A stretch of 64,000 nt of DNA from an uncultured Muribaculaceae bacterium (GTDB taxonomy: Bacteria > Bacteroidota > Bacteroidia > Bacteroidales > Muribaculaceae), in assembly GCA_944321875.1 (NCBI GenBank), contig CALUMX010000006.1, positions 1 through 64,000 of the forward strand. Direction: 5' to 3'. Shown here one piece after another: positions 15,766-36,952 of the stretch (its first letter is position 1; each line of letters opens with the position of its first letter). Under the pieces are notes generated by a model. The model saw only the letters and a list, made by a program, of their open reading frames with translations, had not been told where the DNA came from and did no database searches. A program made the position numbers and the translations under genes.

Positions 15766-17181
15766 CTATCTTCTAAATTTCTTCGACCATTGGAAGAACC
15801 AAAGGAAAACAGCCAGCGTGCAAATGCCGCCAATGACATACGACAATGTCTCGCCAAGACGTAAGCCTTCCGGAGCTATGCAAATGTAAGTGAAGCAGAC
15901 AAGCGTCATAAACAGAGCCGGAATCATCACAAACCAATAAGGCTTCCGCTCTTGCATCAGGAACGCGATGATTGTCCACAGCGTAAATACGGACAACGTC
16001 TGGTTAGTCCAGGCGAAATAACGCCATATCGTATTGAATCCGTTAGCATCCTTCAAGCTATACAGCAAAATCCCCACCGCAGCCAGAAACAGCGGAACAC
16101 AAATAATCAGACGGCTTGTGATTTTTTTCTGTCCGATATGGAAAAAGTCGGCAATGATAAGCCGGGCAGAACGGAAGGCCGTATCACCCGAGGTTATCGG
16201 AGCGGCAATCACGCCAAGCACTGCGAGCACGGCGCCAACTGTGCCCAGCCAACTCTTCGTAATCTCATCAACTATTACGGAAGCATTATTCTCTTCCATA
16301 CCGTTCTCACGGAAGAAATAGGTGGCGGCGGCCGCCCAAATCAAAGCGACAATACCTTCGACAATCATCGCACCGTAGAATACGGGTCTACCGTGATATT
16401 CCGACCGCAGGCAGCGTGCCATCATCGGGCTTTGCGTAGCGTGGAAACCGGAAATAGCACCACAGGCAATGCTGACAAACATAATCGGGAAAATCGGCAA
16501 TGTATCGGCATTGGGATGCGTGTTTTCCAATCCGTCCCACAATTCGGGCAACGCAGGTTGATGATAGAAAAGCATTCCCAGAATGCTGACCGCCATAAAC
16601 AGCAACGCGAAGGCAAACAGCGGATATATCTTTCCGATAATCTTGTCGATTGGCAACAATGTTGCCAGCAGATAATAAAGGAAAATCATAATAATCCAGA
16701 AGGTCGTATCCAAAGCTTCCGGTGTCAGCTTCGCCAACAAACCGGCAGGACCGGCCACAAATACAGCACCTACCAGCACCATCAGCACTATCGTGAACAG
16801 ACACAAAACGTTGCGCATCCGCTTGCCCAGGTAGCGGCCCGTAATCTCAGGCAGGCTCTCTCCGTTGTTGCGGATAGACAACATTCCGGAAAAGTAATCG
16901 TGCATAGCTCCGGCAAAGATGCTACCCAGCACAATCCAAAGATAAGAAGCCGTTCCGAACTTTGCGCCCAGAATAGCACCGAATATCGGACCAAGACCGG
17001 CGATGTTGAGAAACTGAATCATGAATATTTTCCACGTAGGCATCGGGATATAATCCACCCCGTCGGCTTGAGTCAGCGCGGGGGTCTTGCGATTGTCAGG
17101 ACCAAAAACCCGCTCCACAAAGCGGCCATAGGTAAAGTAGCCTGCAATCAAGGCAATAAGGCAAAGTGTAAATGAAATCAT
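15766..17181 (-). CDS. cstA: CstA family carbon starvation protein (peptide/pyruvate transporter)
   Basis: The 471-residue protein is almost wholly hydrophobic, with about 13 membrane segments. It matches CstA through the N-terminal FMIQFLNIAGLGPIFGAILG, then the GSIFAGAMHDYFSGMLSIRN and GFHATQSPMMARC segments. This is the short CstA form lacking the long C-terminal region of the E. coli protein. The family takes up peptides or pyruvate, usually under carbon limitation; which substrate applies here cannot be told. It stands alone between two hairpins with matching arms. Confidence 0.93.
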   Translation of the reverse strand: MISFTLCLIALIAGYFTYGRFVERVFGPDNRKTPALTQADGVDYIPMPTWKIFMIQFLNIAGLGPIFGAILGAKFGTASYLWIVLGSIFAGAMHDYFSGMLSIRNNGESLPEITGRYLGKRMRNVLCLFTIVLMVLVGAVFVAGPAGLLAKLTPEALDTTFWIIMIFLYYLLATLLPIDKIIGKIYPLFAFALLFMAVSILGMLFYHQPALPELWDGLENTHPNADTLPIFPIMFVSIACGAISGFHATQSPMMARCLRSEYHGRPVFYGAMIVEGIVALIWAAAATYFFRENGMEENNASVIVDEITKSWLGTVGAVLAVLGVIAAPITSGDTAFRSARLIIADFFHIGQKKITSRLIICVPLFLAAVGILLYSLKDANGFNTIWRYFAWTNQTLSVFTLWTIIAFLMQERKPYWFVMIPALFMTLVCFTYICIAPEGLRLGETLSYVIGGICTLAVFLWFFQWSKKFRR

Positions 17182-34820: not shown

Positions 34821-35500
34821 GAAAAACGATATTTGTCATCATCGCGCTGCTCGGCATCGGATTCGGAGCCAAAGCCCAAATCCCCGTCGACCCCAATTTC
34901 TCCATCGGTGTCAAAGGCGGGGCAACCATCTCCAAACAGATGTTCAGCCCTTCGGTCGAGCAAACGATGCTCCCCGGCTTTATGGGTGGCGTGATGCTGC
35001 GCTACATTGAGGAAAAGTATTTCGGCATCATCGCAGAAGTCAACTTTGAGCAACGGGGCTGGAAAGAGAAATTCAAGGAAACTCCCTTCTACTACCAGCG
35101 GCGTCTCTCATACGTGCACGTCCCGCTGCTCGCCCATATCTATTTCGGTAAAGAACGACTGAAATTCTTTTTCAACGCTGGCCCGGAGATTGCCTTTCTC
35201 ATAGGCGAAGCCTCCGATGCCAACTTCGACTACCACAATCCGTCGGGCGTGGAAGGACTTCCTCTTGAGAACCGCAACACCGCGCAATTCACGATGGATA
35301 TCAAAAACAAAATCGACTACGGAATCTCTGCGGGACTCGGAACGGAAGTCAACCTCAACAAACGGAATTCATTCGTTCTGGAAGGCCGCTTCTACTACGG
35401 ACTGAACAACATATTCGGAGCCAACAAGAAAGACATTTTCGCTGCTTCCAACAGCATCTCCATCATGGTCTCCCTCGGATATATGTTCCGCGTAAAGTAA
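34817..35500 (+). CDS. Outer-membrane beta-barrel protein (PorT/OmpX-like)
   Basis: The 227-residue protein has a signal peptide (1-20, ending GAKAQ), an opening strand NFSIGVKGGATISKQ, alternating hydrophobic strands and a terminal strand SISIMVSLGYMFRVK. This fits the OMP_b-brl_2 family, sometimes labelled PorT family; I cannot say whether it is the T9SS protein PorT. The 4-bp overlap with the LysM gene suggests the two envelope proteins act together. Confidence 0.85.
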   Translation: MRKTIFVIIALLGIGFGAKAQIPVDPNFSIGVKGGATISKQMFSPSVEQTMLPGFMGGVMLRYIEEKYFGIIAEVNFEQRGWKEKFKETPFYYQRRLSYVHVPLLAHIYFGKERLKFFFNAGPEIAFLIGEASDANFDYHNPSGVEGLPLENRNTAQFTMDIKNKIDYGISAGLGTEVNLNKRNSFVLEGRFYYGLNNIFGANKKDIFAASNSISIMVSLGYMFRVK

Positions 35501-35503
35501 CAC

Positions 35504-35521
35504 ATACCCTCTTTTGGGTAT
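35504..35521. repeat. Small inverted repeat after the beta-barrel gene
   Basis: ATACCC and GGGTAT flank TCTTTT. There is no T-run after it, so it is not a classical terminator. It lies 17 bp upstream of the NarL-like palindrome, and its ATACCC half resembles that palindrome's TACCC core. Confidence 0.4.
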
Positions 35522-35537
35522 CCCCTCCCCATAGAAA

Positions 35538-35553
35538 TACCCATCTATGGGGA
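35538..35553. promoter_or_regulatory. NarL-like 7-2-7 palindrome, candidate operator
   Basis: TACCCAT-CT-ATGGGGA fits the NarL/FixJ-type heptamer pair TACYYMT-N2-AKKRGTA at all but one position. It sits inside a longer perfect inverted repeat, CCCCATAGA (35527-35535) and TCTATGGGG (35544-35552), and abuts the -33 element of the hemerythrin operon. The operon's own second gene encodes a LuxR/NarL-type regulator, so autoregulation is a natural reading. Confidence 0.5.
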
Positions 35554-35584
35554 TTGTCATATCCTGTTTCATCCCCTAACTTTG
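35554..35584 (+). promoter_or_regulatory. Promoter of the hemerythrin-LuxR operon
   Basis: TTG at 35554-35556, exactly 20 bp, then TAACTTTG at 35577-35584. The ATG follows 16 bp later, so the mRNA leader must be very short. Confidence 0.75.
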
Positions 35585-35600
35585 CATTAAAATATAAACT

Positions 35601-36323
35601 ATGAGCAATTTCCACAAATTCAAGCCTACTGACAAGATGTACAACGTCATCGGCCGCAACTATTCGCTGATTTCCGTATTGAGCCGTTTCGGCCTCTCTT
35701 TGGGATTCGGAGAAAAGACGGTGCGTGAGGTGTGCGAAAGCCAGAATGTAGACTGCAACACATTCCTGACCGTTGTGAATTTTGTGGAAGAAGAGTCGGT
35801 CGGCGGTGATTTTGTCCTTGAGCTGGAACATATCTCGCTCGAGGCACTCATCGAATATCTGAAACAGGCCCACAGCTATTTCCTCGATTTCAGCCTGCCC
35901 GCCATCCGTCAGAAACTCTGCCAGGCTCTCGACATGGAACCCGGAAACAACGACATCACGGAGACCATACTGATGTTCTATGACAAATATGTGGAGGAAG
36001 TCAGACGACACATGGACTACGAGGACAAATATGTCTTCACCTACGTCAAAAGTCTGCTTGACGGAAACTATTCCGGCAACTTCAACATCCGGAACTTCGC
36101 CGAGCACCACGATTCCCACATCAAGAAAAAACTTACGGAGCTCAAAAATATCATCATTAAGTATTATCCGCAAACGCAATGCAACAACCTGCTCAACGCC
36201 TCCCTGTTCGACATTTTCAACTGTGAGGCCGACCTGCAGATGCACTGCAGTCTGGAGGATAACGTCTTCGCTCCGGCCGTCGCACAATTAGAAGCTAAAA
36301 TTGCAAATGAAGCACAAGGATAA
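35601..36323 (+). CDS. Hemerythrin-domain protein with ScdA_N-like N-terminus
   Basis: The 240-residue cytosolic protein has a four-helix hemerythrin domain from about 80 to 235. Candidate di-iron ligands are QAHSYF, RRHMDYEDKY (HxxxE), AEHHDSH and MHCSLEDN (HxxxE). Residues about 10-65 (MYNVIGRNYSLISVLSRFGL, then EKTVREVCESQNVDCNTFL) resemble the DUF542/ScdA_N domain of RIC iron-centre repair proteins, but the CCGG motif is replaced by GFGE. It could bind O2 or NO, or act in iron-sulfur repair; the 17-nt overlap with a LuxR-type gene suggests a sensing unit. Confidence 0.85.
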   Translation: MSNFHKFKPTDKMYNVIGRNYSLISVLSRFGLSLGFGEKTVREVCESQNVDCNTFLTVVNFVEEESVGGDFVLELEHISLEALIEYLKQAHSYFLDFSLPAIRQKLCQALDMEPGNNDITETILMFYDKYVEEVRRHMDYEDKYVFTYVKSLLDGNYSGNFNIRNFAEHHDSHIKKKLTELKNIIIKYYPQTQCNNLLNASLFDIFNCEADLQMHCSLEDNVFAPAVAQLEAKIANEAQG

Positions 36324-36918
36324 CGTCAAAATCGTCATTGCTGAAAGTGCCCCCATCCTCCGGACGGGACTGACCGGCATACTGAAACGTTTCAGCAGGG
36401 AAAACTTCTCGGTGACAGAGATTGCCAACGGCGAGGCGTTGCCTATGTTCCTACGCCTTCACATGCCGCATGTGCTGATTATCAACCCGATGTTTCAGCC
36501 AGCGCAGAATGCCGCTGCCTTAAAGAAAGAATATCCGGATTTGCGTGTCATAGCCTATGTGTCTTCCATGATTGACCCGAAAGCGCTCTCCGACTATGAC
36601 GCGATGATTTCCATCCATGACGAACCGGATGACATAAACGACAAACTGTCGACTCTGCTCTTCGAACCGGAAGCTGACGACGACACTCAGGACACCGAAC
36701 AGCTCAGCTCTCGGGAAAAGGAAATTATATGCTACGTTGTGAAGGGGCTGACCAACAAGTCCATCGCAGAGGCTCTGTCCATTTCCATCCACACTGTCAT
36801 CACCCATCGCCGCAACATTGCGAAGAAACTGCAAATACACTCCTCCGCAGGTCTTGCCATCTATGCCATCGCCAACCGGCTGGTAGACTTGAAGGACATT
36901 AAGGACAATATTAATTAA
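36307..36918 (+). CDS. LuxR/NarL-type regulator with degenerate receiver domain
   Basis: The 203-residue protein has a receiver-like domain (residues 1 to about 120) and a LuxR HTH (LSSREKEIICYVVKGLTNKS, then IAEALSISIHTVITHRRNIA). At the expected phospho-acceptor position the sequence reads VLIINPMF, with Asn in place of Asp, and the N-terminal acidic pair is reduced to one Glu (AES). It probably does not use normal phosphorylation. I chose the ATG at 36307 rather than the TTG at 36301. It overlaps the hemerythrin gene by 17 nt, so hemerythrin state may be the input; this is inference. Confidence 0.88.
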   Translation: MKHKDNVKIVIAESAPILRTGLTGILKRFSRENFSVTEIANGEALPMFLRLHMPHVLIINPMFQPAQNAAALKKEYPDLRVIAYVSSMIDPKALSDYDAMISIHDEPDDINDKLSTLLFEPEADDDTQDTEQLSSREKEIICYVVKGLTNKSIAEALSISIHTVITHRRNIAKKLQIHSSAGLAIYAIANRLVDLKDIKDNIN

Positions 36919-36952
36919 AAAAAATCTGAGTCAATCGACTCAGATTTTTTTA
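36917..36952. terminator. Bidirectional terminator between convergent genes
   Basis: CTGAGTC (36926-36932) and GACTCAG (36937-36943), with A-rich and T-rich feet (about 36917-36925 and 36944-36951), form one stem that serves both the LuxR-type gene (plus) and the HU-SPOR gene (minus). Confidence 0.9.

Follow-up and report, generated by a model that had tools for sequence, protein, structure and literature searches.

The window, a 64,000-nt stretch of the genome of an uncultured Muribaculaceae bacterium, encodes on its forward strand a hemerythrin protein and a pseudo-receiver regulator of the LuxR/NarL type. The hemerythrin gene (35601..36323, ATG start) encodes 240 aa. The regulator gene (36307..36918, ATG start, with an alternative TTG start at 36301) encodes a 203-aa orthologue of CdhR that has 39% identity to the regulator of P. 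gulae. The hemerythrin stop at 36323 and the regulator ATG at 36307 define a 17-nt overlap (36307..36323), exactly as given in the original prediction. A terminator-like hairpin (TCTGAGTC/GACTCAGA plus a T-run, 36925..36951), read from the sequence, lies 3' of the regulator and is common to the convergent gene. Flanking genes encode LysM, OMP, HU-CCDC81, TPR, and MscS proteins, and no cognate histidine kinase was identified nearby. A 274-aa antisense ORF opposite the hemerythrin gene (35463-36287, minus strand) is most likely a compositional artefact, and AmiA-like, Imm68, and NadA Pfam matches in the window were dismissed as sub-threshold noise.

The hemerythrin protein

The hemerythrin consists of an ScdA_N-like N-terminal domain (about residues 1-70) and a RIC-type four-helix bundle. 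Pfam Hemerythrin covers residues 83-226 (E 1.1e-8), and the AlphaFold2 model (pLDDT 93) matches YtfE/ScdA in Foldseek. The bundle contains the four His and two Glu diiron ligands by which RIC proteins are recognized (ligand list in PMC9268430). These YtfE-type ligands, H91, H137, E141, H170, H215, and E219, are invariant in all 82 hemerythrins aligned (alignment A1). Cys45 (codon 35733..35735, plus strand) shows the strongest conservation in the family: it is C in 156 of 157 sequences, with a gap in the other one, and is invariant in the 82-member alignment. Neither Cys45 nor the invariance of the six ligands figured in the original prediction.

Among characterised proteins, ScdA (profile E 8e-10) and YtfE (3e-6), both of the RIC type, are closest. 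An ScdA_N-like domain that has lost its CCGG motif had been predicted, and the family profile, built from 82 members, bears this out: it aligns with ScdA from ScdA residue 2 on, with GFG where CCGG is expected. The relationship is visible only through this profile-to-PDB alignment. The Pfam ScdA_N model matched 0 of 82 family members, single-sequence searches included, so the N-terminal domain is best read as a divergent relative of ScdA_N. The N-terminal part of the model aligns with 2k53, a solved 70-residue domain, at a TMt of 0.77 with a weak E of 1.7. Against the RIC equivalog TIGR03652, the hemerythrin scores 51.2 bits, below the cut-off of 204.7.

The regulator and its pseudo-receiver

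The C-terminal LuxR-type HTH of the regulator (residues 131-187, 36697..36867, plus strand; recognition region HTVITHRRNIAKKLQIHS) was identified by Pfam GerE (1.7e-17), and GerE is present in 56/56 homologues. No receiver model matches the window regulator, and Response_reg is detected in just 5/56 homologues. The AlphaFold2 model of the N-terminal domain (residues 7-119, 36325..36663, plus strand; pLDDT 89) adopts the (beta-alpha)5 fold of receivers, and in Foldseek it comes closest to LiaR, RcsB, NarL, and the Spo0F receiver (TMt 0.74).

In one alignment with canonical response regulators, HVLIIN corresponds to LVLLD, so Asn60 (codon 36484..36486, plus strand) falls in the phospho-Asp column; in the model it directly follows beta-3. 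The predicted replacement of the phosphorylated Asp by Asn is thus confirmed, and the remaining active-site residues are missing from this regulator too. Across 81 regulator homologues, this column holds N in 38, D in 27, and S in 10, and there is no conserved Asp of the kind that would have refuted the original prediction. Both residues of the acidic pair are kept in 0/81 and the beta-5 Lys in 1/81, and no homologue (0/81) has a complete receiver active site (acidic pair, Asp, and Lys). Asn60 is a family trait and no quirk of one protein. We rejected a classic two-component system, as the original prediction had also done, on the grounds of N60, the incomplete active site in 81/81 homologues, and the lack of a neighbouring histidine kinase.

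Split pairs and fusions

By protein search, 87 of 99 related genomes carry the hemerythrin. From this search and a GTDB scan, 157 distinct hemerythrin loci were classified: 78 have a neighbouring regulator (split pairs), and in 79 a single ORF encodes hemerythrin plus HTH (fusions). The hemerythrin gene is upstream in 77 of the 78 split pairs, and most genes overlap or lie a few nucleotides apart. The receiver is absent from the fusions, where a linker of 15-39 residues joins hemerythrin and HTH; Pfam Hemerythrin plus GerE was confirmed in two examples. In the hemerythrin tree, fusions nest among split pairs. Several independent fusion events are likely; minimum parsimony gives four changes, of which the starred branches force only one. 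Because the receiver is dead and 79 fusions have none, the hemerythrin likely signals directly to the DNA-binding domain, independently of phosphorylation, as had been proposed.

Seven members form a clade that has lost the diiron ligands and kept Cys45. It includes a second, paralogous hemerythrin-regulator pair of the window's genome (L109, contig C12, 1659-2905), in which the receiver is barely recognisable. This pair sits behind a gene resembling 5-formyltetrahydrofolate cyclo-ligase, and the same upstream gene end precedes several clade members. At another locus (L036), two pairs of different subclades occur on one contig, about 1 kb apart and convergent. A Prevotella-type fusion (L096) occurs in a MAG labelled Bacillota that is probably mis-binned.

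Operator and promoter

Upstream of the window pair is a predicted 7-2-7 operator, TACCCAT-CT-ATGGGGA (35538..35553, plus strand), which matches the NarL-type family pattern TACCYAn-nn-nTRRKKA with no mismatch. The dyad consists of inverted heptamers with a 2-bp gap, the arrangement bound by NarL (engineered NarL site TACCCCTAAAGGGGTA; PMC4549865), and binding by the window regulator is predicted. A repeat search also detected a 28-bp extended inverted repeat, TCCCCATAGA-n8-TCTATGGGGA (35526..35553), that overlaps the operator. The promoters of Bacteroidetes consist of -7 and -33 elements. Here, the 21-nt operator pattern ends in ATTG (35553-35556), overlapping the -33 element, and a Bacteroidetes -7 box, TAACTTTG (35577..35584, plus strand), follows 20 nt after the pattern. 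The search pattern takes in the promoter core, and the conserved ATTG may be partly the -33 element. A spacing of 20 nt between operator and -7 box occurs in 138/147 sites and therefore places the dyad near -42, from which we infer a class II activator position.

The operator is also found upstream of the pair in most close relatives. It occurs in front of Bacteroides, Porphyromonas, and Coprobacter pairs as well as many fusions from Prevotella. Many other family members have no such operator upstream, and their targets may differ. Among split pairs, the motif is upstream in 13 of 14 with an I/V-THRRN-[AT][KR]KLQIH helix and in 4 of 62 others, an association confounded by phylogeny; among fusions it is not significant (Fisher p 0.22). 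Although not independent of phylogeny, this association supports the view that this regulator binds the operator. Motif-pair co-occurrence over 50 genomes gave no discrimination because the family is nearly ubiquitous (47/50 genomes). When the pattern was tightened to GATTG and TA-- at -7, few matches were obtained in the window's own relatives.

Genes behind the shared promoter

Operator plus -7 box scans covered two partly overlapping genome sets, one of 149 P. gulae relatives and one of 199 Bacteroides luti relatives, and about 147 sites from both scans were analysed. The reversed-pattern control gave no matches in either genome set. A hemerythrin gene lies behind 65 of the sites. The others include sites preceding 23 TonB-receptor Plug proteins, 8 FeoA-FeoB fusions, 3 flavodoxins, and 3 TetR regulators, as well as HmuY, a PepSY_TM protein, and an LCM-type methyltransferase. 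Some sites precede genes without an evident iron role, such as those for an LRR protein and a porin-like OMP. With one mismatch permitted, the P. gulae genome has only two matches to the pattern, one upstream of the pair and one upstream of hmuY-hmuR, and P. loveana presents the same picture, with sites before the pair and hmuY. The operator is thus common to the pair and hmuYR in both species, and the window pair has the same operator.

The loci with an operator before a porin-like outer-membrane protein (L257, L313, L314, L325, L327, L363, and L426) possibly reveal a new iron-related OMP. At another locus (L254), the operator precedes a gene for a DUF2249 protein, a family that often accompanies hemerythrin-like proteins.

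In the window's genome, a relaxed operator and promoter pattern detected three sites only. One precedes the pair and another a TonB-receptor operon that includes a small His-rich ORF (contig C41); the third precedes a candidate iron-regulated small RNA (L432/L172, contig C7 near 16751-16799). This candidate lies directly behind the operator promoter. Further candidate loci occur elsewhere (L324, L328, L331, L332, L335, L341, L342, L351, L353, L356, L364, L365, L375, L379, and L381). In the predicted RNA, a near-invariant AATTAGTTAGTCATAATTACGTAA is followed by a terminator hairpin, in which 11 of the 23 predicted pairs show compensatory changes. Rfam gave no meaningful match for the 7 loci scanned, and no obvious peptide is encoded (ATG AAT TAG). 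The nitrite-responsive SnoA RNA was considered and set aside as a different system.

Signal and proposed mechanism

A 2023 study described the hemerythrin-CdhR operon as PG1236-37 in P. gingivalis and BT_0519-0520 in B. thetaiotaomicron, with a fused form in P. intermedia (PMC10434189). Iron depletion induces the orthologous operons 7-fold in P. gingivalis (PG1236-38) and 16-20-fold in B. thetaiotaomicron (BT0519-20), and hmu, fldA, TonB, and TetR genes are co-induced in the transcriptomic data; the same paper calls the mechanism of CdhR regulation unclear. PMC10101095 cites CdhR as an activator of hmu and reports that cdhR is down-regulated under microaerophilic conditions. Human FBXL5 and plant BTS use hemerythrin domains to sense iron (PMC4356067, PMC12022348), and the diiron sites of hemerythrin and RIC proteins are reactive towards O2, H2O2, and NO (PMC12022348, PMC9268430).

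The original prediction, a diiron protein signalling O2, NO, or redox state to a DNA-binding partner, is thus upheld in part. Direct, phosphorylation-independent signalling by something other than a standard RIC protein or a two-component system is supported, and O2 or NO as the main signal is not. The promoter is shared with hmuYR, feoAB, TonB receptors, and flavodoxin, and orthologues are induced by iron starvation (PMC10434189); both point to iron rather than O2 or NO as the likelier signal. Redox or O2 could modulate iron signalling, given the O2 reactivity of hemerythrin diiron sites and the reported decrease of cdhR under microaerophilic conditions.

We propose, with a probability of roughly 60%, that the pair is an iron-starvation regulator in which a diiron hemerythrin senses iron and controls an activator of iron uptake that carries a pseudo-receiver. 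Occupancy of the diiron centre, or its redox-dependent lability, would report cellular iron, and the hemerythrin would contact the regulator directly. The pseudo-receiver would serve as a docking or dimerisation module in place of the phosphorylation switch. Iron would be the primary ligand signal and the apo form the active one. At low iron, the hemerythrin would lose its iron, and a regulator dimer would bind, presumably via this HTH, the 7-2-7 operator near -42, overlapping the -33 element. The bound regulator would then activate its own operon together with genes for iron and heme uptake and for iron sparing (hmuYR, TonB receptors, feoAB, flavodoxin, and the small RNA). If the site behaved as in BTS, where the reduced centre exchanges iron and the oxidised centre holds it, a single site might report both iron and O2.

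A more ambitious version holds that diiron occupancy in a RIC-derived hemerythrin, acting via the pseudo-receiver or a fusion, controls a main iron-starvation activator of Bacteroidales, a NarL-type protein with its own 7-2-7 operator, uptake regulon, and small-RNA arm. To this we give slightly less than even odds. Several observations count against the iron-sensor reading: many family members lack the operator, some operator sites precede genes without an evident iron role, the operator-helix association is confounded by phylogeny and absent among fusions, the window's genome has three FUR-family genes and only three operator sites, and the diiron-less clade retains the pair.

Among the alternatives, a sensor of O2, NO, or redox state would have the diiron centre bind O2 or NO, or change its redox state, and so control the regulator, with iron genes following via the link between iron and O2 stress. 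The reactivity of such diiron sites, the microaerophilic decrease of cdhR, and the invariant Cys45, which could serve as a redox thiol, are in keeping with this possibility. However, the target promoters belong to iron and heme uptake rather than NO or O2 defence, and the orthologues respond to iron depletion, so we regard such a sensor as unlikely. It is rather less probable still that the pair is a passenger, with a Fur-family or other iron regulator binding the operator and inducing both the pair and the uptake genes while the pair acts elsewhere, for example in iron-centre repair plus minor regulation. A promoter in common does not by itself reveal which protein binds it, and the three FUR-family genes offer candidates. 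Against this, the 7-2-7 geometry is NarL-type and matches the HTH class of the regulator, operator presence tracks the HTH helix among split pairs, and CdhR is reported to activate hmu (PMC10101095).

A RIC-type iron-sulfur repair enzyme that is by chance encoded with its own regulator is highly improbable. ScdA and YtfE are indeed the nearest characterised relatives in both sequence and fold, but the loss of CCGG, the TIGR03652 score far under the equivalog cut-off, and the 79 homologues with a covalently fused HTH led us to reject an autonomous repair enzyme.

Relationship to known systems

Iron sensing is poorly understood in Bacteroidales, which include gut commensals and oral pathogens. 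The iron-starvation regulator proposed here offers testable predictions of a sensor, an operator, a promoter position, and a regulon. If it is correct, bacteria own a hemerythrin iron sensor, and a response regulator has traded phosphorylation for a metalloprotein partner, its receiver then being lost in fused descendants. We know of no earlier case in which a hemerythrin iron sensor acts through a DNA-binding domain; this one would parallel eukaryotic FBXL5 and BRUTUS. No proposal of a bacterial hemerythrin iron sensor was found in a partial coverage of the literature, and the BtModulome (PMC12596196) does not mention iron, hemerythrin, or BT_0519/0520.

The window pair adds a member to the CdhR operon family. 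Gene pair and order are as in PG1236-CdhR (PG1237) of P. gingivalis and BT_0519-0520 of B. thetaiotaomicron, and PIN17_RS10465 of Prevotella intermedia (PMC10434189) represents the fused form of the same family. The P. gulae locus has an RluA-type neighbour, as at PG1236-1238, and the same operator upstream, and its regulator also has Asn in the receiver. The literature on the CdhR operon covers the operon itself, its induction by iron depletion, the Prevotella fusion, and hmuYR control, without the operator, an analysis of the pseudo-receiver, or a diiron sensor mechanism. Apparently undescribed until now are the sensor mechanism, the operator, the regulon, and the small RNA.

With YtfE/ScdA (RIC), the hemerythrin shares the two-domain architecture, the four-helix bundle, and six identical diiron ligands, but it lacks CCGG, scores under the RIC cut-off, and has a LuxR HTH as partner or fusion. 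The regulator resembles NarL/CsgD/VpsT-type LuxR regulators in its receiver fold and GerE HTH, and its operator has the 7-2-7 arrangement of NarL; it differs in lacking a phosphorylation site, in its hemerythrin partner, and in the absence of the receiver from fusions. Bhr-DGC of Vibrio cholerae, as cited in PMC10101095, likewise uses a bacterial hemerythrin as sensory input, but its output is c-di-GMP synthesis and it senses redox or O2. The likeness to FBXL5 and BRUTUS, a hemerythrin diiron site as the proposed iron sensor over iron uptake, would be a functional resemblance: those proteins are E3 ubiquitin ligases, whereas the output here is a DNA-binding domain.
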